Positions 26,551 through 63,614 of a stretch of 64,000 nucleotides of DNA are shown here, piece after piece; the stretch's first letter is position 1, and each line of letters opens with the position of its first letter. The stretch comes from a virus, in the IMG/VR virus record IMGVR_UViG_3300042090_003221, positions 51,812-115,811 of that record; one strand, written 5' to 3'. The position numbers were made by a program, and so were the translations under genes. The notes below the pieces were generated by a model. It saw only the letters and a list, made by a program, of their open reading frames with translations. It made no database searches and was not told the origin of the DNA.

Positions 26551-26904
26551 TTACGCGCGAGTGCGCACAAGAGGGGCGAAATCATAGGTCTGCCTGAGAT
26601 AGGAGCCGAGCCGCGTGCAGCCGTCAGCGTCCCCTGGAAGCTCGCCGCCGCGCTCGGCGATCCAGACTTCCGGCGCCCGGTCGTCGCGCTTCCCGTTGCA
26701 CTCCAAGCAGGCCATTGCGAGGTTTTGGATCCCGTCCTTGCCGCCTTCGGCCTTGCGCTTCAGGTGCTCACGCGTCGCCATACGTCGTGGATCTCGGGGC
26801 GATGTCCAAGGGAGCCAGCACAGCTCATCGCAGTAAAAGCAAAGACCCTCCTGCTCCTTGAATAGGCGACGGAGGCGGTTGCGCTTGGTGTTGCCGCTCG
26901 CCAT
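26551..26904 (-). CDS. HNH endonuclease
   Basis: 117 residues, ATG 26904 preceded by GGAGGG. A zinc-type HNH core: CFYCDE (first CxxC), MATREHLKRKAEGG (catalytic His region), GIQNLAMACLECNGKR (Asn and second CxxC). Small free-standing HNH proteins in phages are either homing nucleases or packaging-associated nicking enzymes; far from terL, homing or recombination is more likely here. Confidence 0.82.
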   Translation of the reverse strand: MASGNTKRNRLRRLFKEQEGLCFYCDELCWLPWTSPRDPRRMATREHLKRKAEGGKDGIQNLAMACLECNGKRDDRAPEVWIAERGGELPGDADGCTRLGSYLRQTYDFAPLVRTRA

Positions 26905-27022
26905 TTTTTCCACCCTCCAAGCGTGACGACGAGGACGGTCTTCCAGCCCTTGCCTTTGATTTTCATGAGGCGGCGCTCGGTGCGCGCGCGCCGCCAGATC
27001 GGACGACGACTCGCGGAACCCA

Positions 27023-27788: not shown

Positions 27789-28013
27789 TCATCGGCGTCC
27801 ATGCCGTTCTGCGTAGCGTTGCGCGTCCTGCCTCGCCGCCTGCGGGTATTGCCGGGCGTCCTCTTGCTGGAGAAACTTGAGGTCCTCTGCGCTCAGCGTC
27901 ATTCCGCGCTCTCGCGCGAAGCGGCGCCACCAGTCGCCGAGCGTTTCGCGATGCAGCCACGCAACGAGGCGCGTCCCGTCGCCGGCATCAGGCTTCTCGT
28001 CATCGACGGTCAC
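27789..28013 (-). CDS. Small hypothetical protein, 74 aa
   Basis: GTG 28013 overlaps the methyltransferase stop as GTGA. Contains WLHRETLGDWWRRFARERGM and a helical Gln/Arg-rich tail (QQEDARQYPQAARQDAQRYA). No known motif; translationally coupled to the methyltransferase. Confidence 0.5.
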   Translation of the reverse strand: MTVDDEKPDAGDGTRLVAWLHRETLGDWWRRFARERGMTLSAEDLKFLQQEDARQYPQAARQDAQRYAERHGRR

Positions 28014-29899
28014 TCCGCGGCGATCGGGGCGGCGCGGCGGCGCGCGAGCTCGACCAGCGCGGCGCGCCCGATGTGCTCCGCGTAGGCCGGAGGAATCGCC
28101 TCGCTCATCTCCGCGAGAGTCATCCAGTCGATCCCGAGAGCCTCGCTGGCCGCGGCCTTGTGGCCGCCAACCCAGACGTCGCGCGTCCCGCGGCCGCCGG
28201 CGCGCGCCGACCGGCGTCGGGCGTGGCCGCCGTAGACCCCGATCACGGGGCGCGGGTCGCGCGCGCAGACGCATTCGGGTTGCGGGATTGAGAAGCTGGC
28301 CTCGAACAGGCGACGCCGCTGCAGCCGGCAGCCCTGGGCACCGAGGCCGAACATGCAGCCGCAGAGGGTGACCGGGCTCCGCATGCTCCAAGCGGCTTCC
28401 TCGACGTTTTCAATGACCCAGAGGGCTCCGGTGGCCTGGAGCCGTTCGCGCATCGCGTCGATCAGCAAGGGGGCGCCGACAGCGCCCGGCGCGTGGCGCA
28501 TTGCTGAATATCCTTGGCAGTTGTGTACGACGATACCGTCGGCGCAGTAGGTTTCATCCTCATCAACCGAAAGGTTGAAAACCCGCTGCGCAACCGGAGA
28601 CGAAACAACGGATCGAACAAGGCCCCATCCGTGCTGGTCGTCAAACCGAAACGACCTCGCGGTTTTGGAAAACCTTACCTGGAAGTGGGGGCGCTCGCGC
28701 ACGGTTCGCCCCTCGATTTCAGTCGTGCCTATTCCCCCCGGGCGCCTCGGCTCGCTCTTAGTGATCGTCGCGCTAAGCCCGGATTGGTTCAAGAGCATGC
28801 GCACCCCAACGGCGAGGGCGCGGGAAACCGTCGTGAAGCCCGTTACGGCGCCGCCCGTGTAGCGCGGGTCGTTTTTCACGTACCCGTCGGCGAGTTGATA
28901 ACCGTCCAGAAAGGACTGGCGGTATTCGCGGCTCGCGCCGTGAAGCCAAGACGGAATCTTTTTGTTGGCGGCGCCGATGCCGAAATGCTCCTTAAGCCAA
29001 GCACATAGACGCCTTGACCCTGACCTCGCCTTGGCGGAGGTTCGCTCGATTGAAACGCTGCAACGCAAACCTGCCTCAGCCATTAGGGAGCGCAACAATT
29101 CGGCGTCTTGCTGAGCGCCGCAGATCAGCACGTCGTCGCGCGTGACCCATCCGTCTCCAACCCAATAACCGAGGAATTTGGCGAACCCCAGCGTGGCCGC
29201 GTCGGCCGCGGGCGCGCCCCTGACATCAATCATGCCGTCGGAGATTGCGTAGGCGCGCGCCGACGACGCCTCGGCCTCGGTGTCGTAAGAGCCGATGTAG
29301 ACCGTGCGGCTCCCTTTCGAGCCATACGCGCGGTAGCGTTTGACCTTTTCGTCAAAGACGTAGCCGGCCGAGCTTGGCGGAATTGGCGGGACGCTGGCTT
29401 CCGGGACTAAGGCGACGGTCGCCCACCTTTGCCCCTCCATAGCGCCGGCGTCTGTCCACTCAGCCGCGTCGGACAAGCTGACATAACCGTCCGGCGCTCG
29501 CCGGCTCGTTTTCGAGTAGAACGGGTGCTCTGCGGTCGTCGTGAGGCCCCAGTGGCCCTGCCCCTTCAGGGTTACGGTCGGCGACCACGCCGATCCAATT
29601 TGCGTCACCCTTCGCCAGCGCGCGTTGTGCGTGAGGACAAGGTCACCAACCACTACCTGCTCGATCGGCACTTGCCCGCGCGCCGTGAAAATTAGGGTTC
29701 CGGCGGGGAAGCAGGGCGGCGACGCCCACACGAGGTCAAAACCGGAGAAATCGAACTTCAGCGCGTCGGCCTGGACGAACGCGAACGGATAGCGCTTGCG
29801 TGCTTTGATATCGACGCCGACGACGCTGAACCCGGCGCGGTGGAGACCCATTCCGGCGCCGCCGGCACAGGAAAAGAGATCGAGCGCGCGGGGCTTCAC
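28010..29899 (-). CDS. DNA C5-cytosine methyltransferase interrupted by an intein
   Basis: 629 codons; GTG 29899 overlaps the upstream stop. Without residues 63-460 the protein is a compact 231-residue C5-methyltransferase: motif I ALDLFSCAGGAGMGLHRAG, motif IV WASPP|CQGYS, motif VI VIENVEEA, motif VIII LQRRRLFEA, and a C-terminal AIPPAYAEHIG. The intein lies exactly before the catalytic Cys, which is its +1 residue, so splicing is required to form an active site. The target site cannot be read from sequence. It is followed by a small coupled gene and preceded by a dCMP deaminase cluster. The function is probably self-protection against host restriction. Confidence 0.9.
   Translation of the reverse strand: MKPRALDLFSCAGGAGMGLHRAGFSVVGVDIKARKRYPFAFVQADALKFDFSGFDLVWASPPCFPAGTLIFTARGQVPIEQVVVGDLVLTHNARWRRVTQIGSAWSPTVTLKGQGHWGLTTTAEHPFYSKTSRRAPDGYVSLSDAAEWTDAGAMEGQRWATVALVPEASVPPIPPSSAGYVFDEKVKRYRAYGSKGSRTVYIGSYDTEAEASSARAYAISDGMIDVRGAPAADAATLGFAKFLGYWVGDGWVTRDDVLICGAQQDAELLRSLMAEAGLRCSVSIERTSAKARSGSRRLCAWLKEHFGIGAANKKIPSWLHGASREYRQSFLDGYQLADGYVKNDPRYTGGAVTGFTTVSRALAVGVRMLLNQSGLSATITKSEPRRPGGIGTTEIEGRTVRERPHFQVRFSKTARSFRFDDQHGWGLVRSVVSSPVAQRVFNLSVDEDETYCADGIVVHNCQGYSAMRHAPGAVGAPLLIDAMRERLQATGALWVIENVEEAAWSMRSPVTLCGCMFGLGAQGCRLQRRRLFEASFSIPQPECVCARDPRPVIGVYGGHARRRSARAGGRGTRDVWVGGHKAAASEALGIDWMTLAEMSEAIPPAYAEHIGRAALVELARRRAAPIAAE
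28520..29713 (-). mobile_element. Intein with LAGLIDADG homing endonuclease and AP2-like insertion
   Basis: 398 residues, in frame in the methyltransferase. The N-terminal splice block is CFPAGTLIFT (Cys1), block B is TTTAEHPFY, and the end is DGIVVHN followed by Cys+1. The endonuclease blocks are FLGYWVGDGWV and SFLDGYQLADGYV. Between the splicing and nuclease parts, residues ~117-160 (VFDEKVKRYRAYG...VYIGSYDTEAEASSARAYA) look like an AP2-type DNA-binding domain. The catalytic aspartates of both LAGLIDADG blocks are present, so the nuclease may be active. Confidence 0.9.
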
Positions 29900-30168
29900 A
29901 GCGCGCCCCCGAACAGGTCGGGACCTCGCGGCGCCCCCTTGGTCACGACGTTGATGGCGTCCTCGATGACGCCGCGGAAGGCCTCCGGATAGACGGCGAA
30001 GCAATGGGAGCCCCGGCCGCTGGCCTTCGCGCGCAGCTCCTTGGCGGGGAGGCGGCCGTAGCGGTCGACGAAGCGGTCGCGCACCGCGGCGCCGACCGCC
30101 CATGTCAATTTCGGCTCGGGCTCAAGCCCCTTTGCCTTGAAGACGTCAATCACGGTGATGCGGGTCAC
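29896..30168 (-). CDS. Hypothetical protein, 90 aa
   Basis: GTG 30168 overlaps the deaminase stop. Begins VTRITVIDVFKAKGLEPEPK and ends GAPRGPDLFGGAL; basic middle. The region KLTWAVGAAVRDRFVDRYGR is similar in style to helix-loop DNA-contacting phage proteins, but no family is recognised. Confidence 0.5.
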   Translation of the reverse strand: MTRITVIDVFKAKGLEPEPKLTWAVGAAVRDRFVDRYGRLPAKELRAKASGRGSHCFAVYPEAFRGVIEDAINVVTKGAPRGPDLFGGAL

Positions 30169-30632
30169 GCGCGCTCCAATGCGGTTGAGGGATAGAGGAC
30201 GAGCTCGACGCCGGCTTCGGCGAACATCGTGGCGCCGTGCGCGAACGTGTCGTTCCAACGCGGATTGTTGCTCGTGAGGGAAACGACGCGCTTAATGCCC
30301 GCCTGGATGATCAGGCCGGAGCAGTTGTTGCCGCCATCGGCGCCGCTGCAGGGCTGAAACGGCCAGGAATAGAGGGTGTAGCCGTGGAGCGACTCCCGCG
30401 CGGTGACGATCGCGTTCGCCTCAGCGTGGACGGTACGCGCGTACTTGGTCGCGCGCTCATCGTAGAGGTGAGAGTCGTCACAGCAACCCCGGGCAAATCC
30501 ATTGTACCCGACGCTCGCGACCGTGCGGTTCGGCCGCACGATGACGGCGCCGACCTGGGTTGAGGGGTCCTTCGAAGCTTCGGCCATGTATTTGGCGAGC
30601 CCGATGAAGAACGCATCCCACTCCGCGCTCAT
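30165..30632 (-). CDS. dCMP deaminase-family protein
   Basis: 155 residues. Zinc site residues are His69-Ala-Glu71 (VHAEANAI) with Cys95 (FQPCSG) and Cys104 (NNCSG). The N terminus (KYMAEASKDPSTQVGAVIV, then GYNGFARGC) is the classic start of deoxycytidylate deaminases. It converts dCMP to dUMP for dTTP supply during phage replication. The insertion between the two zinc Cys is longer than in the shortest family members. Confidence 0.9.
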   Translation of the reverse strand: MSAEWDAFFIGLAKYMAEASKDPSTQVGAVIVRPNRTVASVGYNGFARGCCDDSHLYDERATKYARTVHAEANAIVTARESLHGYTLYSWPFQPCSGADGGNNCSGLIIQAGIKRVVSLTSNNPRWNDTFAHGATMFAEAGVELVLYPSTALERA

Positions 30633-42735: not shown

Positions 42736-43308
42736 GTGAATTCGATCTGCGCTGTCACTAACTGCCAAGGCGTCGTGACGGCGAAGGGCTATTGCGATCG
42801 GCATTACCGACGCTTTCGCGTTCATGGAGACCCGCTCGGTGGCCGAACAGTTCCGGGTGAGCTGACCGCGTTCGTCGAAATGGCGGCGAAGTGCAAAGAC
42901 GAAGAATGCCTCATGTGGCCATTCGGCCGGAATAGCGGCGGATACGGCGTGGTCAAATATCAAGGCAAACAAGACGGGGCGCACAGGGTGATTTGCAAGA
43001 TCGTCAACGGAGCGCCACCGACTCCTGAGCATCAGGCCGCGCATTCTTGCGGGAAGGGCAAAAGCGGCTGTGTAAACGGATCACACCTTCGCTGGGCAAC
43101 TCCGCAAGAAAATTCTGACGACAAGGCTGTTCATCAGACCGTGTCCAGGGGGGAGTCTGTGTTTGGCGCAAAACTCACAGAAACAGACGTCAGGGCAATT
43201 CGATCGACGCCGGGGATAAATCAAAGTGAGATGGCTAAGAAGCTAGGCGTCACAGTGTCTGCGGTGAACTTTGTTGTAACAGGCAAAACATGGAGGCACG
43301 TTCAATGA
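42736..43308 (+). CDS. HNH homing-type endonuclease
   Basis: 190 residues from GTG 42736. N-terminal zinc motif CAVTNC...GYCDRHYRR, then the HNH core QDGAHRVICKIVNGAPPTPE and HQAAHSCGKGKSGCVNGSHL (His, Asn and His). The C-terminal 50 residues are an HTH (INQSEMAKKLGVTVSAVNFV). Wedged between the coiled-coil gene and bet, as expected of a free-standing homing nuclease. AT-richer than the flanks, consistent with transfer. Confidence 0.85.
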   Translation: MNSICAVTNCQGVVTAKGYCDRHYRRFRVHGDPLGGRTVPGELTAFVEMAAKCKDEECLMWPFGRNSGGYGVVKYQGKQDGAHRVICKIVNGAPPTPEHQAAHSCGKGKSGCVNGSHLRWATPQENSDDKAVHQTVSRGESVFGAKLTETDVRAIRSTPGINQSEMAKKLGVTVSAVNFVVTGKTWRHVQ

Positions 43309-44450
43309 GTAACATCACTACGCTACCCGCCGCACGCAAGGACATTGTGACGAGCGTCTCTTTCAACGATCTGCGCTTGCCGTATCACGAAGCATTCGCC
43401 GATGGGTTCGGAATCGACAACATTCGTTGGAAGGTTTTGATCGACACGGTTTTCCCGACAGCGAAGACGGTCGATTCGATCGCGATGGCTCTTTCCTATT
43501 GCAAACAGCGAAGCCTCGATCCTTTCAAAAAACCGATTCATATCGTGCCGATGTATTCCACCGCTAAGCGTGAATACGTCGAGACGGTCTGGCCCGGGAT
43601 CTCCGAGCTGCGCACCACAGCAACGCGGACGGGCGAATATGCGGGATGCGACGCCGCCGTGTTCGGCCCGACGATCAAGCGCGAGTTCAAAGGCATCGGC
43701 GAGGTCTGGGAAAACCGCCAGAAGGTTGAACGCGAAGTCAGCGTCACCGTCGAATATCCGGAGTGGTGTCAGGTCACCATTCATCGCGCGATCCGCGGGC
43801 AGCGCGTCGCTTTCGTTGGCCCGAAAGTCTTCTGGACTGAGTCCTACGCGCGCCGCGGCAAAGCCGACATTCCGAATGAAATGTGGTGCAAGCGTCCGTT
43901 CGGTCAGATCGAAAAATGCGCCGAGGCCGCCGCGCTGCGCCGCGCCTTTCCCGAGGAAATCGGCAACGAGTACACCGCCGACGAGATGGAAGGGCAGATC
44001 CTGTTCAGCGCGCCCGCGGCCGCTGAGCAGCCGGCGAAGTCGAAGCTCCCCCCGACGCCCCCGCCGCCGGCTTTGGAAAAGCCCCGTCCCGAGACCGACG
44101 AGCGCGCCGAGACGCGCTCGCCTGATGTCGGCGCCGGGAAACCCAAGGTCCCGCCCGGCCCTCCGCCTGTCGTCAGTAGCGGCAGAACGCCTCCGCCTCC
44201 GCCTCCGCCTCCGCCGCCCAGCGCCGGCGCGCCGAAGTCCGACGCGAATCCGGCCGCGCCCTTCAGCTTCGACGCCTACCTGGGCAAGTTCCGCAAGGCT
44301 ATCGTCGCCTCGAATACGCAGGATGAGGCGAACGCCACCTACGACCGCATGGTCCTGAAGGGCGCGTACAAGTTCAGCGACGACGAGACGACCGAATTCG
44401 ACAGCATCCTCTCCGAGGAATGCGAGCGGTTCTGGACGCCGGAGAGCTGA
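43305..44450 (+). CDS. bet: Phage recombination protein Bet (RecT/Red-beta family)
   Basis: 381 residues, ATG 43305. Core blocks: YCKQRSLDPFKKPIHIVPMY, RTGEYAGCDAAVFGP and MWCKRPFGQIEKCAEAAALR, which define Bet-type single-strand annealing proteins. Residues ~250-310 are a proline-rich linker and the end is a small helical domain (FDAYLGKFRKAIVASNTQDE). It anneals complementary strands during phage recombination. The matching exonuclease is not obvious beside it. Confidence 0.92.
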   Translation: MSNITTLPAARKDIVTSVSFNDLRLPYHEAFADGFGIDNIRWKVLIDTVFPTAKTVDSIAMALSYCKQRSLDPFKKPIHIVPMYSTAKREYVETVWPGISELRTTATRTGEYAGCDAAVFGPTIKREFKGIGEVWENRQKVEREVSVTVEYPEWCQVTIHRAIRGQRVAFVGPKVFWTESYARRGKADIPNEMWCKRPFGQIEKCAEAAALRRAFPEEIGNEYTADEMEGQILFSAPAAAEQPAKSKLPPTPPPPALEKPRPETDERAETRSPDVGAGKPKVPPGPPPVVSSGRTPPPPPPPPPPSAGAPKSDANPAAPFSFDAYLGKFRKAIVASNTQDEANATYDRMVLKGAYKFSDDETTEFDSILSEECERFWTPES

Positions 44451-50549: not shown

Positions 50550-50962
50550 CCCGCCCCGAAGGCGCGCCGCCAGCCTTCGTCGACGACGAGGGCTTGCACG
50601 CCTTCATTGCGCCGCACATGACGCACGCAGCGTTTCTGCGCGCCATAGCTGAGCTCGAGCACAGAGGCTTTCCTAAGCCAAACCCGACCTTCAAGGGCCG
50701 CTACATGCCCGCCGTGCGGCGATGGCTGGACGGTCACGCCGGTTTAGGTGCAACTCGGCCGCCCAGCCTAGCGGCAGCGGACGGACAAGAGACGTGGGGA
50801 GACACAAGCGATGCGGTCACAGGCTCCGGGGCTGAAAAGGCGCCGGCGAAAGGACGGGGAGGCGCTCTATTGGAGCGCGGCGGCATTGTCCCCGAAAGAC
50901 GCGAAGCGTTACCCCGACGCCTGGATCCGTTTACCGCAAAACGCCACGCCCGCGGAGATTGA
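50546..50962 (+). CDS. Excisionase-like or integrase-associated DNA-binding protein
   Basis: 138 residues; overlaps the integrase gene by 152 bases in another frame. N-terminal half: HAAFLRAIAELEHRGFPKPN then PTFKGRYMPAVRRWLDGHAG, the pattern of small winged proteins that accompany tyrosine integrases in Rhizobiales phages. The C-terminal part, inside the int gene, is low-complexity and may be dispensable. Likely directionality factor. Confidence 0.6.
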   Translation: MTRPEGAPPAFVDDEGLHAFIAPHMTHAAFLRAIAELEHRGFPKPNPTFKGRYMPAVRRWLDGHAGLGATRPPSLAAADGQETWGDTSDAVTGSGAEKAPAKGRGGALLERGGIVPERREALPRRLDPFTAKRHARGD

Positions 50963-51986
50963 AGACCTATGTCAGGTCTACGCCGAGCGGTTCGATGCTT
51001 GGCGCGCCATGGGTGACCGACCGCGCTATCTCTACGACGGAACCGTCGGGAGCCTATGCGACGCATTCGAGCGGCACGACGAGAGCCCGATGCGAGACGT
51101 CAAGGCGTCGACCGCGGGCTCTTACAGCGATTCTCTGAAGGTGATCCGCGGGACCGTCGCGGCGCGCGCCGTGCGCGCCGTCACGCCAATCGACGTCAAA
51201 ACATGGTTCCGGAAGTGGAAGGAACCGAAGGAGCCGGGCGGCCCGGAGCGGACCAAGCGCGCGCACGACGCAATTTCGATGCTGCGCCAGATCCTCAACT
51301 TCGGTCGTTCGCTCGGCTATGCCGAATGCGGCGAACTGTCCGAAGGCTTGTCGTCAATGCGCTTCGAACGCTCCGGCCGGCGGACAACGGCAATGACGGT
51401 CGATCACGCCCGGACGTTCATTGCCGCCGCCTTGGCGCGCGGGGACAGCCGCGGTCTTTACATGGCGATCGGCGTTGCGGCGCAATTTGAAACGATCTTG
51501 CGCCAGATAGACGTCATCGGAGAATGGGTCGACGAAGGCGCCCACGAGGTCTGGCGCGGATCTTTTACCTGGGAAGCCATCCCGGGCGGCATTCTGCGCC
51601 TGAAGACCAGCAAGACCGGCTCGCCGATCTCGCACAACCTGACCAAGCTCGAATTGCTTTGGCCGCTTATGCAGGCGGTCCCGCAAGCCGAACGTTTTGG
51701 CGCTGTCGTGAAAGGGGAGGGCGGGCTCCCAATTCGGACCCGCTCTTATCGGAAGTGGTTCGCCGAGATCCGCGATGCCGCTGGCCTGCCGAAAGACCTT
51801 TGGGCGATGGACGCGCGCGCCGGCGCGGTGACCGAAGCGCTTGACATGGGCGCCGACCTGACCGACGTCAGCCGGACCGCGACGCACTCGACCGTGACCA
51901 TGACGCGCCGCTACGACCGCGTCGCCGAGGAGTCGGCGGCGCGTGTAGCTGAGGTCCGCAAGCAGGGCCGGAGCCGCAAGCCATGA
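50811..51986 (+). CDS. int: Tyrosine-family site-specific integrase
   Basis: 391 residues. An N-terminal SAM-like core-binding domain (DVKASTAGSYSDSLKVIRGT) precedes the catalytic domain: Arg in FETILRQIDVIGEW, a DARAGAVTEALDMG box where D-x-R replaces the usual H-x-x-R, ATHSTVTMTRRYDR with His and the nucleophile Tyr368. It integrates the phage genome into a host attachment site. A tRNA 3'-end sequence 94 bases downstream of the stop (52080) is the likely att core. Confidence 0.92.
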   Translation: MRSQAPGLKRRRRKDGEALYWSAAALSPKDAKRYPDAWIRLPQNATPAEIEDLCQVYAERFDAWRAMGDRPRYLYDGTVGSLCDAFERHDESPMRDVKASTAGSYSDSLKVIRGTVAARAVRAVTPIDVKTWFRKWKEPKEPGGPERTKRAHDAISMLRQILNFGRSLGYAECGELSEGLSSMRFERSGRRTTAMTVDHARTFIAAALARGDSRGLYMAIGVAAQFETILRQIDVIGEWVDEGAHEVWRGSFTWEAIPGGILRLKTSKTGSPISHNLTKLELLWPLMQAVPQAERFGAVVKGEGGLPIRTRSYRKWFAEIRDAAGLPKDLWAMDARAGAVTEALDMGADLTDVSRTATHSTVTMTRRYDRVAEESAARVAEVRKQGRSRKP

Positions 51987-52203: not shown

Positions 52204-52331
52204 GGCTATGTTGGAACCAGAGCGCCTAGAGCCGCTCGGGGCCTGACTTTCCCCATCGCACGCGTTTGTCTGCCGCCGCTCGTCGGGCGGGGGCCTGCGC
52301 TTTGCGACGACGCTCCCGCGAGGCGCGCCCA

Positions 52332-54788
52332 TTGCCCATTCTCACCGGCGTCCACCTGCTGCCCGCCACGGGCGAATTCACCTATGACACGCAAGCCTAT
52401 CTCGGCCAGCGCGCAACCGAGCCGGCGCTGAGCGCGATCAATACCTACAGCGGCCAGAGCCCGACGACGGACTATTCCGTCAGCATGAACCAACTCGCCA
52501 GCCAGCACCCCGAATGCGCGACGGTTTCGCTCGTGTGCGCCTGGTTTTGCGACGGGACCACGGCGGGCGCCGCCCGCGTCTATCCGACCACGACTTACAT
52601 CGGCGGGACGTTCCAGAAGAGCGGCGGCGGCGCGGACGTCTGGCGCTGCTCAGGTCTGACGCAGGCGAGCGCCGGCCTGATCGCTATGCCGACGGCGAGC
52701 GACGGAAGTTTCATCTATGGCGGCACGCCGAGCGATTCCTCGATCGTGCGCTGCATTCAGGATCTGAAAGCGCGCGGCTTCAGAGTCGTGTTCTACCCAT
52801 TCCTGTTGATGACCGCGCCGGGGCTGCCGTGGCGCGGCGAGATCACATTTTCGCCCGACATGACCGCGGCGGCGACGGGCGCCGTCTCGGCCTTCCTTGG
52901 CGGCGCGGCGCCAGCGCAGTTCACGCGCGACCCGGTCAACCTGACCGTCGGCTATTCCGGCTCGGCGACGGACTGGACCTATCGGCGCATGATCCTGCAC
53001 TACGCCAATCTCTGCGTAGTCGCGGGTGGGGTCGATCTGTTTGTAATCGGCTCCGAGTTGCGCGGGTTGGAGACGATCCGCGGACCGGGCTGGACCAAGG
53101 CCGGGACGACGGACGGCGGCGGTCTTGCGGTCTGGGATTATCCATTCGTGGCGGGATTGACGACGCTGGCCGCCGACGTGCGCAGCGTGTTCGACGGCGC
53201 GGGTCTGACGAAGAACACGACGACGCTGAAGAACCTGATCGCCTATTCGGCCGATTGGTCGGCCTGGATGGGCGTGCAGCATGCGGGCGAGAACGGACAA
53301 TGGCCGCATCTCGACCAGCTCTACGCTTCCAACGCCATCGATCTGGTGGCGTTCGACAATTATCTGCCGCTGTCCGACTGGACGACGGCTTCGGGCGGGC
53401 TCGACGCCGCCAACTGGCAGGCGCCGCCGCCGGCGTCGTGGCCGACGCCGACGCCGGCCGCGCGCGGCTTCGGGCTCTCCGGCGCGCCGACGATCTATTC
53501 CAGCGCCTATCTACAGGCGAATATCGAAGGCGGCGAGAAGTTCGATTGGTATTACTCCGATTCGAACAACCTCGGCGCCGGTGACGACCCCAACGGCTCG
53601 GGACTGATGGTCTCGTTGCCCGAGGGCGACCGGGCGACGCAGACGCGCCAGCCTTACTACGCCGGCCAGCAGATCCTCGCCAACAAACAGCTGCGCTGGT
53701 GGTGGATGAACCCGCATCGCGCGATCTACGATAGCGGCGGCGGTTGGGTCGCGCAGGGGCCGGCGACGGAATGGGTCGCGCAGTCGAAGCCGATCGTGTT
53801 TCTCGAATACGGCGTCCCCAGCGTCGACAAGGCGACCAATCAACCGAACCTGTTCTATGCAACCTCCTCGGTGGAGAGCGGAACGCCGTATTGGTCGATC
53901 TGGACTTCCGCCGCGGGCGACAAGCTCCTGCCGCTGCGCGACGACACGATCTCCGAGATGGCGCTCGACGCAATCTACGCCTACTGGCAGGCCAACAACG
54001 CCAGCGCGTCCGGAGTTTCCATGCTGCAGTGGACGTTCTGCTGCGTGTGGAACTGGGACGCGCGGCCGTTTCCGTGGTTCCCGGCGCTGTCGAGCGTCTG
54101 GGGCGACGCGGCGAACTGGCCTTACGGCGACTGGCAAGGGGCCGGCCGCATGCCGACGCCGCCGGCGCCGGCCGCGGCCGATCCTTTGCCGGGAAGCTAT
54201 CCGTCATTTCCGACGCTCGCGACGCTCTGCTGGTCGACGCAGGCGCGGCCGCGGTTCGAGACGGAGGTCGCCGCGCATGTCTCGGGCCGGGAAAGCCGGC
54301 GGCCGGGGCGGGCGCTGGCGGTCTACGACATCGAACTCAGCTATGACGTCCTGCGCGCCGGAGCGCAGGCCGAGATGCAGGCGATCGCCGGCTTCTACGC
54401 GCAGCGCCAAGGGCAGGACGGGGCGTTCTGGCTGGCTCTGCCGGGGCTCGCGGCGCTGAGCGGACAGGCGCTTGGCGCGGGCGACGGCGTGACGACGCGG
54501 TTTGCGCTGGTGCGCAGCCTCGCCGGCTATGTCGAGCCGGTTGCGGCCACGAGCGGCGTGTCGGCGGTCTATCTCAACGGCGCGCCGCAAGCGACCGGCT
54601 GGAGCGTCTCGTCGGGGTTCTATCCCGCGATCAGCTTCGCCACGGCGCCCGGACCCGGCGTCGCGGTGTCGGCGGATTTCGGCGCGCTGTGGCTCTGCCG
54701 CTTCGCCGAGGACGTCGCCGACGTCGAGAACTTCATGGCGCTGCTCTGGCGCTGGGGATCCGTGAAACTGCAGACGGCGAGGCCCTGA
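52332..54788 (+). CDS. Tail protein: GTA-type TIM-barrel glycoside hydrolase fused to DUF2460-like domain
   Basis: 818 residues from TTG 52332 (MPILTGVHLLPATGEFTYDT); a TTG at 52266 is in frame but the added residues look non-coding. Residues ~1-560 match the GTA_TIM domain of the Rhodobacter gene transfer agent hub: YGGTPSDSSIVRCIQDLKAR, NLIAYSADWSAWMGVQHAGE, IDLVAFDNYLPLSDW, ANIEGGEKFDWYYSD, FLEYGVPSVDKATNQPN. The C-terminal ~190 residues are a DUF2460-like tail domain (RPRFETEVAAHVSGRESRRP ... RFAEDVADVENFMALLWRWG). In the GTA protein a hub domain precedes the TIM barrel; here it is a separate gene (57337). Confidence 0.85.
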   Translation: MPILTGVHLLPATGEFTYDTQAYLGQRATEPALSAINTYSGQSPTTDYSVSMNQLASQHPECATVSLVCAWFCDGTTAGAARVYPTTTYIGGTFQKSGGGADVWRCSGLTQASAGLIAMPTASDGSFIYGGTPSDSSIVRCIQDLKARGFRVVFYPFLLMTAPGLPWRGEITFSPDMTAAATGAVSAFLGGAAPAQFTRDPVNLTVGYSGSATDWTYRRMILHYANLCVVAGGVDLFVIGSELRGLETIRGPGWTKAGTTDGGGLAVWDYPFVAGLTTLAADVRSVFDGAGLTKNTTTLKNLIAYSADWSAWMGVQHAGENGQWPHLDQLYASNAIDLVAFDNYLPLSDWTTASGGLDAANWQAPPPASWPTPTPAARGFGLSGAPTIYSSAYLQANIEGGEKFDWYYSDSNNLGAGDDPNGSGLMVSLPEGDRATQTRQPYYAGQQILANKQLRWWWMNPHRAIYDSGGGWVAQGPATEWVAQSKPIVFLEYGVPSVDKATNQPNLFYATSSVESGTPYWSIWTSAAGDKLLPLRDDTISEMALDAIYAYWQANNASASGVSMLQWTFCCVWNWDARPFPWFPALSSVWGDAANWPYGDWQGAGRMPTPPAPAAADPLPGSYPSFPTLATLCWSTQARPRFETEVAAHVSGRESRRPGRALAVYDIELSYDVLRAGAQAEMQAIAGFYAQRQGQDGAFWLALPGLAALSGQALGAGDGVTTRFALVRSLAGYVEPVAATSGVSAVYLNGAPQATGWSVSSGFYPAISFATAPGPGVAVSADFGALWLCRFAEDVADVENFMALLWRWGSVKLQTARP

Positions 54789-54807
54789 CGATGGGAGTTA
54801 CAATCCA

Positions 54808-55920
54808 ATGACGAGCCCGTCGATCTTTCCCGCGCTGGCGGGCCAGGGCTGGAGCGTGCGCAAGAAGCCGACCTTCGCCACGATGGTGGCGAGCCATGTC
54901 TCCGCCCGCGAAGTCCGCAGCCCGAATTACCTCAATCCTATCTGGCAGTTCGAGCTGAGCTTCGACGGGCTCGACGGCACGGCGGGCGGGCAATACGGCG
55001 GCCTCGGCGCGTCTTCGCTGCAATCGCTGATGGGTCTGTTCCTGCAATGCCAGGGGCAATACGGCGCGTTCCTCTACTACGACCCGACTGATTATCAGGT
55101 CAGCGCGCAGCCGTTCGGCGTCGGCGACGGGACGACGATCAGCTTCCAGCTCGTGCGCTCGCTCGGCGGCTTCTCCGAGCCGGTAACGCAACCTTTCGCG
55201 CCCGCCGCGCCGACGCTGTTTCAGGTCCAGGGCTCGGCGGCGGCCTATGCGCCGAACAATCTCGCCAACCATTCCGGCGACTTCACCAACGGCGTTTGGA
55301 GCAAGACAAACGCGAGTCTGGCGAGCGGCGTCGCCGATCCCTTCGGCGGCGCGGCGGCGCAGACAGTCACGGCGACTGCAGCCAACGCCCTCGTCAGTCA
55401 ATCGGCGACGGCGATCGGCTCCAACTATGTCAGCTCGATCTGGATGCGCCGGAGAACTGGCGCAGGAACCGTTTCTCTATGCACGCCGGCCAACGTCAGC
55501 GCCGCGGTTTCGCTCACCTCCTCTTGGCAGCGTTTCAGCGCGTCCGGGGCGCCGGCCGCCGGCTCCGCCTATTGCGCCGTGCAGTTGGCGACATCGGGCG
55601 ACGCCGTCGACGTCTACGGTCCTCAGCTCGAACAATCCTTGCTCTCGACGCCGGGCCCGTATTTCCAGACGCTCGCCACCGACTATTACGGCGGCCCCTG
55701 GATTGCGGCGAACGGCGCACTCGTCGATCCCTCGGCTTACACCGTCTCGAACGGGCTGGTGAAATTCTCGTCGCCGCCGGCGAACGGCGCGGCGCTCGCC
55801 TGGACCGGATATTTCGGCTTCCTCTGCCGCTTCGACGGCGACGATCTCGATTTCGAGCAATTCATGGCCAACCTCTGGCGCGCCCAGAGCGTGAAATTCC
55901 GATCCTTGAGGGCGCAATGA
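54808..55920 (+). CDS. DUF2460-family tail protein
   Basis: 370 residues, ATG 54808 shortly after the previous stop. FPALAGQGWSVRKKPTFATM, SHVSAREVRSPNYLNPIWQF and FLYYDPTDYQVSAQPFGVGD are the DUF2460 signature; the last part ends FDGDDLDFEQFMANLWRAQS. Residues ~150-280 are an inserted Ser/Ala/Thr-rich, beta-sandwich-like carbohydrate-binding segment. Equivalent to GTA gp12, part of the distal tail. Confidence 0.9.
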   Translation: MTSPSIFPALAGQGWSVRKKPTFATMVASHVSAREVRSPNYLNPIWQFELSFDGLDGTAGGQYGGLGASSLQSLMGLFLQCQGQYGAFLYYDPTDYQVSAQPFGVGDGTTISFQLVRSLGGFSEPVTQPFAPAAPTLFQVQGSAAAYAPNNLANHSGDFTNGVWSKTNASLASGVADPFGGAAAQTVTATAANALVSQSATAIGSNYVSSIWMRRRTGAGTVSLCTPANVSAAVSLTSSWQRFSASGAPAAGSAYCAVQLATSGDAVDVYGPQLEQSLLSTPGPYFQTLATDYYGGPWIAANGALVDPSAYTVSNGLVKFSSPPANGAALAWTGYFGFLCRFDGDDLDFEQFMANLWRAQSVKFRSLRAQ

Positions 55921-56786
55921 AAGCGACATCAGCGCCCGTCCTGGCGGCGATCAACGCGGCGCGCGCCGCGCCCGACGCGCCGCTCGTCTTCGCCGAATGT
56001 TTCACCTTCACGCTGGCGACGGGAACGATTCTCACCTGGACCAACGTCGACATGCCGGTGACCTACAACGGCGCGACGTTTTCGGCGACCGGGCCGCTGG
56101 TGCAGGGCCTCAAGTACAAGGCGAGCGTCGGGCTCGAAGTCGACAAGCAGCAGATCACGATCGCCGCGCGGCCGAGCGACACGATCGGGGGCGCGGCGGC
56201 GCTGATCGCGATAAGGCAGGGCGCGTTCGACGGCGCGACCGTGCAGCGCGACCGGGTATTCCTCACAGCCATCGGCGGGACGGTGATCGGCGGTGTGACG
56301 TTGTTCCACGGCCGCGTCTCGACGGTCGACAGCGTCGGCCGCACGCAGGCTGCGATCACGGTGGCGAGCGATCTGATCGTGCTCGACTACGACATGCCGC
56401 GCAATCTCTATTCGCCCAGCTGTGTGCATACGCTGTACGATTCCGGCTGCGGCGTCATCCGCGGCGCCTATTCGGCGAACGGGACGGCAGGGGCAGGGTC
56501 GACCGCGAGCCTGATCCTGACGAGCGTCGCGCTCGCCGGTCATATTCAGGGTTCGATCTTGTTCACCAGCGGCGTCAACGCGAATGTGCGCACGACGGTG
56601 AAGGGCGTCATCGTCGGGGCGTCGCTGTTGCTGATGTATCCGCTGCCTTCGCTGCCTGCAGCGGGCGACGCGTTCTCCGTCGCCTTCGGCTGCGACCATA
56701 CGCGCGGGACGTGCCAGAGCCGGTTCAACAACCTCGCCAACTTCCGCGGCTTCCCGTTCGTGCCGCCGCCGCAGATCGCTTACTGA
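55917..56786 (+). CDS. DUF2163-family tail assembly protein
   Basis: 289 residues, ATG overlapping the previous stop. LVFAECFTFTLATGTILTWT and NGATFSATGPLVQGLKYKAS open the domain; the C-terminal block has GCGVIRGAY and GCDHTRGTCQSRFNN-LANFRGF, with conserved Cys/His of the DUF2163/phage_BR0599 region. Equivalent to GTA gp13, a baseplate/tail-tip connector. Confidence 0.92.
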   Translation: MKATSAPVLAAINAARAAPDAPLVFAECFTFTLATGTILTWTNVDMPVTYNGATFSATGPLVQGLKYKASVGLEVDKQQITIAARPSDTIGGAAALIAIRQGAFDGATVQRDRVFLTAIGGTVIGGVTLFHGRVSTVDSVGRTQAAITVASDLIVLDYDMPRNLYSPSCVHTLYDSGCGVIRGAYSANGTAGAGSTASLILTSVALAGHIQGSILFTSGVNANVRTTVKGVIVGASLLLMYPLPSLPAAGDAFSVAFGCDHTRGTCQSRFNNLANFRGFPFVPPPQIAY

Positions 56787-56884
56787 AAGGCGGCAGGCGT
56801 GGTTCGCAAACGCCTGCTTGCCAAGCGCGCAGCGGGCGCGTGAGCTGCCTGCGGCCTGACGCCTGCCGCCACAAGGACAATCAG

Positions 56885-57340
56885 ATGAGTGACGTCTCCC
56901 CCGAGCGCGCCCGCGTCGTCGAGGCGGCGCGGGCGTGGCTCGGCACGCCCTATCATCACGCCGCCGACATCAAAGGCGTAGGCGTCGATTGCGCGATGAT
57001 CCTGGTGCGCGTGTTCTGCGATCTCGGTCTCGTCGCGCCGTTTGATCCGCGCCCCTACGTTAAGGATTGGATGCTGCACCGCGGCGAGGAGCGATATCTC
57101 GGTTTCCTGATCGACCACTCGCGCGAGATCGAAGCGCCGGAGCCCGGCGACGTCATGCTGTTTCGCGTCGGGCGCTGCTACGCGCACGGCGGGATCGTCA
57201 CGAAGGCCGATCCGCTGACGATCATTCACGCGTTTGCTCCGGCGGGAAGAGTCGTCGAGGACGAAGTGCGTCGGGCGGCGGATCTCGCCGAACGGCGGCC
57301 CCAAGCGAAATTCTTCAGATTGTGGAGTCTCGACCCTTGA
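56885..57340 (+). CDS. NlpC/P60-family tail-associated peptidase
   Basis: 151 residues. Catalytic Cys36 in GVGVDCAMIL and His101 in CYAHGGIVTK; RAWLGTPYHHAADIKG is typical of phage tail NlpC/P60 proteins. Equivalent to GTA gp14. It cleaves peptidoglycan peptides during entry or trims the hub. A 98-bp gap precedes it. Confidence 0.92.
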   Translation: MSDVSPERARVVEAARAWLGTPYHHAADIKGVGVDCAMILVRVFCDLGLVAPFDPRPYVKDWMLHRGEERYLGFLIDHSREIEAPEPGDVMLFRVGRCYAHGGIVTKADPLTIIHAFAPAGRVVEDEVRRAADLAERRPQAKFFRLWSLDP

Positions 57341-59709
57341 GTTGGTTTCGCTCGCCCTCAAATCAGACCAAGCCGGACTACACCGGCCTGCAACTGCAAA
57401 CATCGGTCTCGACGCTGCCGATTCCGATCTGCTGGGGCCAGACCAAACTCGCGCCGAACATCATCTTCTACAGCAATTTTCAAACGAACGCCGTCAGGAG
57501 CGGCAAGGGCGGCCTGTTCAGCGCGCCGACGACCGGATACACCTACAGCGCCGACATCATCATGGCGCTGTGCGAAGGGCCGATTTCCAACATCGGCTAT
57601 ATCTGGCGCGACCAGTCGACCTACACGCTCGCAAACCTCGGCCTGGCGCTCTACGAAGGCGCGACGCCGCAGACGATGTGGGGCTATCTCGCGAGCACAT
57701 ACCCGACCGAGGCGCTCGCCTATCAGGGCACGGCCTATGTGTGCGCGGCCAACTATCAGCTCGGAGGCGCCGCCGACGTCGGCAACCACAATTTCGAGGT
57801 GATGGGCGCCCTCGCCGGCACCGGAATCAACGGCGTCGACGCCGACCCTGCGCAGGTCGTTTACGATTTCCTCACCAATGCGCAGTACGGCGCGGGCTTC
57901 AATCCCGCTTCGATCAATCTGACGACGCTGTACGGCTCCGGCGGCGACGCCTCGCTGCAAACCTATTGCAAGGCGATGGGCATCGCCTTCTCGCCGCTGT
58001 TGACCAGCCCCGAGCAGGGGTCTTCAGTCCTCGCGCGCTGGCTGCAACTCGTCAATTGCGCGGCGGTCTGGTCGGGCGGGCAGCTCAAGTTCATCCCCTA
58101 TGGCGACCTGCCTATCGCGTCGGGCGATGTCACGACGACGCAGACGGCGCCGATCCCGATCCCTGCGCAGGAGAGCAACGGCAGCTACCCCGCGCCGGCC
58201 ATCGTCATCGCGACGCCGGCCAATTTCGTCGCCGACGGCGGGGTGGTCTACTCTTTCACGGGTCGGGCGCTGACCTATGTCGGGACGAGCGCGCCGGGCG
58301 CCAACGGGCAATACGGAATCTCGCCTGCAGGAACCTATCTGTTCCACTACGGCGACCAGGGTGCGCCGGTGACGATCACGGCGACCGTCGCCGTGCCGGT
58401 CTCCTACGTTCCCAATCTGACGCCGGTCTATTCACTGACCGATCTCGATTTCATCGACGAGAGGGGCGACAAGGACCCGGTCCAGGCGCAGCGAGTCGAT
58501 CCCTACAGCCTCCCGACCATCCAGCGCATCGAATGTCTGTCGCGCGACAATCAATACGCGACGACGCCGGTCGAGGCGCGCGACCAGTCGCAAATCGAGC
58601 TTTTCGGGACGCGGGTGGGGTCGACGATCCAGGCGAACGAGATTTGCGACGAGGTCATGATCGGTCCGATCGTCGCGCAGACGATTCTGCAGCGGCAGCT
58701 TTATGTCCGCACCCACTACACGTTCAAGCTCAGCTTCGAATATTGCCTGCTCGATCCGATGGACGTGGTGACGATCACCGACGCCAACCTCGGCCTTGTC
58801 GCTTATCCCGTCCGCATCGTCAGCATCGACGAGGACGATCGGGGGGTGTTGGCGGTCACGGCGGAGGAGCTCGTTCTCGGCGTCTCCACGCCCAGCGCCA
58901 ATCCTTCGAGCGGCGCCGTTTCGTTCCAGCCCAACCAGGGCGCGGCGGCGGCTTCGATCAATCCGCCGCTCCTTTACGAGCCGCCCCCGGCGCTGACCGG
59001 CAATATCGCGCAGGTCTGGGTCGGCTCGAGCGGCGGCTCCGGCGGCGTCGCCGACCCCAACTGGGGCGGCGCGTTCGTCTGGGCGAGCGTCGACAATGCG
59101 ACCTACTCACAGATCGGCGTGATCACGCAAACATTGCGTCAGGGTGTGCTGACCGCGCCGCTGGCGAGCGCGAGCGGCTGGGATACGACGAACACGTTGA
59201 GCGTGAGCCTCGCGGAAAGCGGAGCGACGCTGTCGGGCACGAGCCTGGCGTCCGCGCAGGCCGCCGCGACGCTGACGCTCGTGGACAGCGAACTGCTCGC
59301 CTATGAGAACGCAGCTCTGTCGGGCGCGAACGCCTACAACCTGACTGGCCTGCAACGGGGCTACGCCGGCACGCCGCCGGCGGCGCACGCCGCGGGGGCG
59401 GCCTTTGCGCGCCTCGATTCGGCGGTAGTCAAATATGATCTGCCGGACACTTGGATCGGCGTGACGCTCTATTTCAAGTTTCAGTCTTTCAACGTCTTCG
59501 GCGCGGGTGCGCAGGATCTGTCGACCTGCGCGGTCTACAGCTATGCGCCGACGGGGGCCTCCTCGATCGGGCCGGTGACGCAGGCGCTGATGATCGGGAC
59601 GAACCTGGATTTCGGGCTCGTCAGCTCGCCGGCCGTCGAATCCGACGATTGGGGAACCGTTGCCGCCGCGGTGTTCGCGAGCGTCGATCTCGGCAACGTG
59701 ACGTCGTAA
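57337..59709 (+). CDS. Tail hub / tip attachment protein
   Basis: 790 residues from TTG 57337, overlapping the NlpC stop (TTGA). QTSVSTLPIPICWGQTKLAP, YSADIIMALCEGPISNIGYI and AYQGTAYVCAANYQLGG are the family blocks of GTA gp15 and lambda J-like hub proteins; the middle has VTITDANLGLVAYPVRIVSI and the C terminus is a fibronectin-like region. It lacks the TIM barrel, which sits in a separate gene at 52332. Confidence 0.85.
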   Translation: MSWFRSPSNQTKPDYTGLQLQTSVSTLPIPICWGQTKLAPNIIFYSNFQTNAVRSGKGGLFSAPTTGYTYSADIIMALCEGPISNIGYIWRDQSTYTLANLGLALYEGATPQTMWGYLASTYPTEALAYQGTAYVCAANYQLGGAADVGNHNFEVMGALAGTGINGVDADPAQVVYDFLTNAQYGAGFNPASINLTTLYGSGGDASLQTYCKAMGIAFSPLLTSPEQGSSVLARWLQLVNCAAVWSGGQLKFIPYGDLPIASGDVTTTQTAPIPIPAQESNGSYPAPAIVIATPANFVADGGVVYSFTGRALTYVGTSAPGANGQYGISPAGTYLFHYGDQGAPVTITATVAVPVSYVPNLTPVYSLTDLDFIDERGDKDPVQAQRVDPYSLPTIQRIECLSRDNQYATTPVEARDQSQIELFGTRVGSTIQANEICDEVMIGPIVAQTILQRQLYVRTHYTFKLSFEYCLLDPMDVVTITDANLGLVAYPVRIVSIDEDDRGVLAVTAEELVLGVSTPSANPSSGAVSFQPNQGAAAASINPPLLYEPPPALTGNIAQVWVGSSGGSGGVADPNWGGAFVWASVDNATYSQIGVITQTLRQGVLTAPLASASGWDTTNTLSVSLAESGATLSGTSLASAQAAATLTLVDSELLAYENAALSGANAYNLTGLQRGYAGTPPAAHAAGAAFARLDSAVVKYDLPDTWIGVTLYFKFQSFNVFGAGAQDLSTCAVYSYAPTGASSIGPVTQALMIGTNLDFGLVSSPAVESDDWGTVAAAVFASVDLGNVTS

Positions 59710-62663: not shown

Positions 62664-62765
62664 CGTGCTGCGAGCGCCTTTGCATCTTCTCTCCGCCTGA
62701 ATGGGTCGTCGCCGCGGGCGCGCACGTTCGCGCCTCGCGATTTCGCCAGCAATGTGAGGCTGTCC

Positions 62766-63614
62766 ATGGATGTTATCCTGCCGCCTGTCGTGCAGAGGCC
62801 GACGCCGAACTACACGCCGTCGCTCATTCGACATGACCTCGTGGTCGTGCATCGCACCGAAGGCGGGTACGCGGGGGCTGTCGCGTGGTTGTGCGACCCG
62901 CGCGCGTGCGCGTCCGCGCATCTCGTCATGAAGGCGGACGGCTCCGAAGCGACGCAACTTGTCCCGCTGCAATATAAGGCGTGGGCGCAATGCGCGTTCA
63001 ACTCGGCGGGCGTCTCGCTTGAAATAGAGGGCTACACTGCGCAGGGGCTCGCCGACGACACGGCGAAGGCCGCCGCGCGAATCGTAGCTTGGCTATGCCG
63101 CGCCTATGCGATCCCGCCGACTTGGGCGCAGAGCGGGCAGGGGCGCGGAGTTTGCCAGCATCACGACCTCGGCGCCGCCGGCGGCGGTCATGTCGATTGC
63201 TCGGGCGTCGGCAGCGAAACCTGGCTTCGCTTCATGGGCTTCGTCAAGGAGTCGTTCGATGCTTTCGGCCCCGGCGCGCTTCCCGCCTTCGCGCTGCACG
63301 GGCTGCCGCAGCCGCACGAGATTGCGGTGGCGTCCGCAGCCGCGCCGGCGCCCTCGCATGGCGGCGCGGCGCGTTGCGAGCCCGGCGACGCGCCTGCGCA
63401 TCCGACCGCGTCCGGCTATCCCGCCGGCAGCGTCGCTGACCTGCAATGGCGGCTCAACAAGGCCGGCGCGTCGCCGGCGCTGCTTCTGGACGGCTTCATC
63501 GGCGATCGCACCCGCGAGGCGGTGGCCGCTTTCCAGAGCGCGCACGGGCTTTACCGCAATGGCGTCGCCGGGCCGATGACCCTCGCGGCGCTCGACGCTT
63601 TGACCCGGGCATGA
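62766..63614 (+). CDS. N-acetylmuramoyl-L-alanine amidase with peptidoglycan-binding domain
   Basis: 282 residues, ATG 62766 after TGAGG. Amidase_2/PGRP part: LVVVHRTEGGYAGAVAWLCD, ASAHLVMKADGSEATQLVPL, GVSLEIEGY and a C-terminal zinc His/Cys region (CQHHDLGAAGGGHVDC). Residues ~220-280 are a PG_binding_1 repeat (VADLQWRLNKAGASPALLLD and REAVAAFQSAHGLYRNGVAG). The likely phage endolysin: no signal peptide, so a holin would release it. Confidence 0.88.
   Translation: MDVILPPVVQRPTPNYTPSLIRHDLVVVHRTEGGYAGAVAWLCDPRACASAHLVMKADGSEATQLVPLQYKAWAQCAFNSAGVSLEIEGYTAQGLADDTAKAAARIVAWLCRAYAIPPTWAQSGQGRGVCQHHDLGAAGGGHVDCSGVGSETWLRFMGFVKESFDAFGPGALPAFALHGLPQPHEIAVASAAAPAPSHGGAARCEPGDAPAHPTASGYPAGSVADLQWRLNKAGASPALLLDGFIGDRTREAVAAFQSAHGLYRNGVAGPMTLAALDALTRA

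Follow-up and report, generated by a model that had tools for sequence, protein, structure and literature searches.

The virus-derived window analysed here (64,000 nucleotides, bases 51,812 to 115,811 of the 115,811-base IMG/VR virus record IMGVR_UViG_3300042090_003221) contains a gene which is read from its sequence as a phage C5 cytosine DNA methyltransferase carrying a full-length class-1-type intein with an intact-looking LAGLIDADG endonuclease, inserted directly before the catalytic cysteine of motif IV and, with high probability, splicing normally. The intein is real and correctly placed, and its site is widespread rather than singular. Of chief interest are how widely the site is occupied, the testable alleles of phage P1, the transfer between methyltransferase subfamilies and a probable AP2-like insert.

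The precursor gene is known from one assembled virus record. Its GTG start codon at 29899 overlaps the stop codon of the ORF upstream; precursor residues 1-62 together with residues 461-629 make up a small C5 cytosine methyltransferase, and residues 63-460 are the intein. The features are the following, with their basis in brackets:

28013-29899 plus stop codon 28010-28012, minus strand: whole precursor, C5 methyltransferase with an in-frame intein, 629 codons
29714-29899, minus strand: N-extein, 62 aa, from motif I (DLFSCAGG) to WASPP (alignment with relatives)
28520-29713, minus strand: intein, 398 aa, Cys1 to Asn398, with a His-Asn end (profiles, model, PDB matches)
29414-29713, minus strand: N-terminal splicing (Hint) part, residues ~1-100, with the block B TxxH inside (Hint_2, model, conserved T60 and H63)
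29234-29377, minus strand: probable AP2-like insert, residues ~113-160 (Pfam, model, Foldseek)
28739-29191, minus strand: LAGLIDADG homing endonuclease domain, residues ~175-325 (LAGLIDADG_3, model, PDB matches)
29150-29176, minus strand: first LAGLIDADG motif FLGYWVGDG, acid D187 present
28883-28912, minus strand: second LAGLIDADG motif FLDGYQLADG, acid present
28520-28726, minus strand: C-terminal splicing part, residues ~330-398, end VVHN (TIGR01443, model)
28517-28519, minus strand: +1 Cys codon TGC, the motif IV catalytic Cys (alignment with relatives)
28013-28519, minus strand: C-extein, 169 aa, from CQGYS, with IENV and QRRR inside (alignment with relatives)

The host of the intein is identified by its sequence features as a C5 cytosine DNA methyltransferase. 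When joined, the exteins match PF00145 with an E-value of 7.8e-6 and 26 bits, over the cut-off of 22, and the DNA methyltransferase family PHROG_363 with 3.1e-32, and motifs I, IV (PCQ) and VI (ENV) are visible; IENV of the C-extein is taken by us to be motif VI and QRRR to be a motif VIII-like element. The interrupted precursor reaches an E-value of only 0.29 against PF00145, which illustrates how an unrecognised intein weakens domain searches; gene predictions for such methyltransferases are mis-sized as well. Compared with two intein-free relatives, the extein shows pN of 0.17 and pS of 0.79 (L005) and dN of 0.26 and dS of 1.14 (L006), so nonsynonymous changes per site are far fewer than synonymous ones, as would be expected of a working enzyme.

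A class 1 intein has Cys or Ser at position 1, a block B TxxH, a C-terminal His-Asn and Cys, Ser or Thr at position +1. All of these residues are present (Cys1, T60-A-E-H63, His397-Asn398 and Cys+1), and the insertion is in frame and has intein-free homologues. The intein matches Hint_2 (4.2e-9) and LAGLIDADG_3 (3e-11) in Pfam, both above the cut-offs, and the NCBIfam profile intein_Cterm TIGR01443 (4.3e-6, also over the cut-off), its score against the Pfam profile PF14890 Intein_splicing being below the cut-off. By sequence, the intein profile matches PI-PkoII and PI-SceI, while PI-PkoII and I-DmoI are among the matches of the LAGLIDADG domain. The AlphaFold model, which was made for the intein alone with 19 aligned inteins, has a mean pLDDT of 90.7, and the first Foldseek matches of this model in the PDB are TliVMA (E-value 3e-20) and PI-SceI (E-value 1.2e-18). 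According to the model, both share with this intein the architecture of a Hint part and a two-motif LAGLIDADG domain, although their hosts are V-type ATPases and the identity to this intein is 14-18% in structural alignments. The predicted LAGLIDADG fold and two motifs with their acids in place suggest an endonuclease that may still be intact, and the whole of 28520-29713 can be described, by its residues, as a complete class-1-type intein.

The sequence-only reading had placed an intein at these positions, directly in front of the motif IV Cys, and had claimed that its removal restores an uninterrupted PPCQ. All this was borne out: the junctions are exact, the profiles, the predicted fold and the empty sites agree, and the alignment with relatives puts the catalytic Cys at position +1. 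Three intein-free relatives from IMG/VR (L005, L006 and L007, with 77, 73 and 57% identity to this methyltransferase over the best segment) align without a gap across the junction and read SPP/CQ, the slash marking the insertion point. There are at least 581 relatives of this methyltransferase in a wider listing, and among the best 80 of them no listed match is longer than 768 bases, leaving no room for a 1.2-kb intein, with the ranking favouring uninterrupted copies and thus not amounting to a census.

Splicing would be expected to proceed by an N-S shift at Cys1, transfer to Cys+1, cyclisation of Asn398 and an S-N shift, giving the free intein and a methyltransferase with the sequence SPPCQGYS. 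One Cys would thereby play two roles, serving as the splicing nucleophile first and as the methyltransferase nucleophile afterwards. Before splicing the enzyme should therefore be inactive, and the earlier suggestion that methylation depends on splicing is a reasonable one. The endonuclease would be expected to cut intein-free motif IV DNA, the intein then being copied in, and the near-invariance of this Cys and the adjoining residues among C5 methyltransferases makes the position favourable for an intein.

Such an intein in motif IV of a C5 methyltransferase had been thought unusual, and this claim does not hold, as the same codon is occupied in 113 other loci, including P1 Dmt in E. coli; rarity of the site was therefore rejected. 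With the intein alone as a TBLASTN query, 65 phage and 133 plasmid records were matched, whose annotated hosts are not all methyltransferases and also include thymidylate synthase, ribonucleotide reductase and terminase. A profile built from 13 such inteins found 101 relatives in viral contigs, the best 80 of which were used, as well as 27 relatives in genome contigs; together with 15 loci taken from annotated records, this made 122 other loci. Nine of them were excluded manually ahead of counting, five (L105, L129-L132) as the sequence after the Cys was unlike a C5 methyltransferase and four (L019, L066, L127, L128) as the intein start was not recovered in frame, which leaves 113 of the 122 with an intein at precisely this codon. 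All 114 kept loci, this one included, read xP(D)/C...HN/C, the intein being preceded by Pro in 99 and by Pro-Asp in 15; for the contig loci the C-terminal junction is partly so by construction, since the search patterns required HNC[QK], with Cys1, the N-flank and the motif VI-like E[NQ][VTI] lying outside the pattern. The latter is absent from four loci (L008, L058, L060 and L126). The 114 loci comprise 69 inteins at 90% identity and nine extein groups. Among phages, the site is occupied in P1 Dmt, EBPR siphovirus 2 gp44, Pseudomonas phage Lana gp71, Propionibacterium phage B22 gp50, Lactobacillus phage Nyseid and Erwinia jumbo phages (Erwinia Y3 among the phages), to name some; it is also occupied in plasmids of Rhizobium and Euzebya and in contigs whose names point to Clostridia, Duganella and an archaeon of the Desulfurococcales.

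As to whether closely similar methyltransferase inteins had been catalogued already, the answer is divided: proteins carrying them are in public records, but they are annotated as methyltransferases and in one case (H202) as a LAGLIDADG homing endonuclease.

Several of the occupied loci differ in the state of the intein or its host. Two short inteins at the site (L097 with 135 aa and L124 with 238 aa) are too short for a full endonuclease domain. The LAGLIDADG acids look lost in the same-site inteins of the Erwinia phages pEa_SNUABM_5 (L014) and Yoloswag (L020), where VSNG and SRCS replace GDG and ADG, as expected of ageing elements. In a Mannheimia phage (L008) and two IMG/VR contigs (L058 and L060) the intein is intact and the frame after CQ is no longer that of a methyltransferase; the annotation of the Mannheimia phage divides the methyltransferase between two ORFs.

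Natural alleles with and without the intein were found for P1 dmt among 5,426 complete E. coli genomes. The gene matches 493 of these genomes, with at least 80% of the query covered in 147, and the P1 dmt intein alone matches 152, every one with at least 99% identity. One empty allele is identical to P1 dmt minus the intein at 1998 of 2019 bases and lacks exactly the 1,023-base intein, indicating that the precise absence of the intein is tolerated. One more P1-like dmt (L214) has an empty intein site and contains an additional 246 bases in another part of the gene. The earlier suggestion that loss of the intein is costly consequently stands only for imprecise loss, since precise empty sites are common, both in the family of the methyltransferase described here and in the P1-like dmt with 99% identity. 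With the site being common and Dmt of the laboratory phage P1 among its hosts, these plus and minus alleles make the cost of an active-site intein directly testable, and they also allow direct tests of homing between phage-plasmids and of the dependence of methylation on splicing.

The nearest inteins are those of EBPR siphovirus 2 gp44 (JF412297.1, 54% identity), a Chthoniobacterales contig (L106, 53%), a Dokdonella contig (L107, 51%) and an IMG/VR contig (L026, 50%). The gp44 intein resembles this one in occupying the same codon and having the probable AP2-like insert, whereas the gp44 extein, annotated only as 'methylase', belongs to another C5 methyltransferase subfamily. The exteins of the four nearest inteins resemble each other, but BLAST of these exteins against the extein described here gave no match, and the profile comparison of the extein groups is weak (hhalign probability 1.9%, E-value 0.026). 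Since the inteins are 50-54% identical and their hosts have no BLAST match, a jump between hosts is indicated. A tree of 68 inteins unites the five in a single group (100/100), within which this intein is nested (99/89), and a 15-row intein tree agrees, placing it among the other four (91/87); an arrangement with the other four as one clade without this intein was not rejected by the AU test (p 0.087). Transfer of the intein between methyltransferase subfamilies is therefore well supported by these sequence comparisons, and the nesting makes the four other hosts possible donors. With at most 20 of 36 bases shared, the flanking DNA of these loci has little similarity, and the intein probably passed through intermediate hosts.

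The insert at residues ~113-160 is present in this intein and its four nearest relatives and was not recognised in the other 109. AP2 (PF00847) ranks first in Pfam for three of the five inserts, all below the cut-off, with the best at 22.1 bits against 33.3. The predicted topology is strand-strand-strand-helix, and the best Foldseek matches are plant AP2 domains, first that of TEM1 with a weak E-value of 0.069. The VIA comparison of the insert with AP2 gave Z 5.1 over 47 residues at 2.2 Å, a value tied by an unrelated protein and about equalled by unrelated folds. The insert is probably AP2-like and may serve in DNA targeting.

Hint domains are not confined to inteins, PT-HINT being among the Pfam matches, so with PF14890 under its cut-off one might think of a Hint-type or other domain simply fused into the methyltransferase. 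This is highly improbable, and a Hint fusion other than an intein was rejected as contradicted by the empty alleles: the relatives have exact empty sites, TIGR01443 is over its cut-off, a LAGLIDADG domain is present and the same codon is used in nine extein groups. It is likewise improbable that the intein splices poorly or not at all in a dead or decaying methyltransferase. The Mannheimia phage locus and the two IMG/VR contigs mentioned above, where the C-extein departs from the expected frame soon after CQ, would be precedents for such decay; the present precursor, however, has all the splicing residues and a frame open throughout, and its extein retains motifs I, IV and VI and the VIII-like residues with few nonsynonymous changes.

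The intein could also act as a conditional switch, splicing being held until some signal (redox, metal, temperature or infection stage) and the phage thereby timing the methylation of DNA. In favour of this, the intein parts the active-site Cys from motif I, so the unspliced protein should be inactive, and conditional splicing has been reported for other inteins, such as that of mycobacterial DnaB, in the accessible parts of PMC6195587 and PMC7360933. Nevertheless, alleles lacking the intein are common at this site, and a scattered distribution of this kind is what a mobile element could show with no benefit needed, which makes such a switch unlikely. A broader view is somewhat speculative and rather doubtful as a whole: the catalytic-Cys codon may be a global niche for phage and plasmid inteins moving among unrelated methyltransferase subfamilies, with the AP2-like module of one branch retargeting the endonuclease and the shared Cys acting as a built-in delay of methylation. 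A normally splicing intein of the class 1 type thus remains the preferred reading.

Among known systems, the inteins of P1 Dmt, Lana gp71, B22 gp50, Nyseid and Erwinia Y3 have the same codon, Cys1, HN and +1 Cys as the intein described here, but differ in showing 24-34% identity over the aligned region and no recognised AP2-like insert. P1 Dmt, unlike this protein, has an additional adenine methyltransferase domain. The mycobacteriophage DNMT-1 and DNMT-2 inteins are likewise phage inteins with a LAGLIDADG endonuclease in DNA methylases; in the available part of Kelley 2016 (PMC5050341) these are given as N6_N4 type, which means another family and another site. The intein in the 'DNA methylase' of phage Doug sits in N6_N4_Mtase at MHV/CPLQFD. 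An actinophage methylase with an intein and two other insertions was described by Gosselin 2023 (PMC9957025), the accessible portion of which does not contain the words cytosine, cysteine or catalytic. In the literature searched, no description of an intein in C5 motif IV was found, although the P1 genome paper and the 2016 survey of bacterial inteins may contain one.

The neighbourhood of the methyltransferase gene on the minus strand includes a dCMP deaminase gene upstream (30165-30632) and a small HNH endonuclease gene downstream (26551-26913). On the plus strand, the region 52266-59709 contains gene-transfer-agent-type tail genes (GTA_TIM with 7.2e-97, DUF2460, Phage-tail_3 and Rcc01698_C), which suggest a phage of Alphaproteobacteria. 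There are also a RecT match (5.6e-23, 43290-44450), a phage integrase match below the cut-off (50811-51986) and an amidase with a peptidoglycan-binding domain (62754-63614), all on the plus strand, and with these the phage is possibly temperate.
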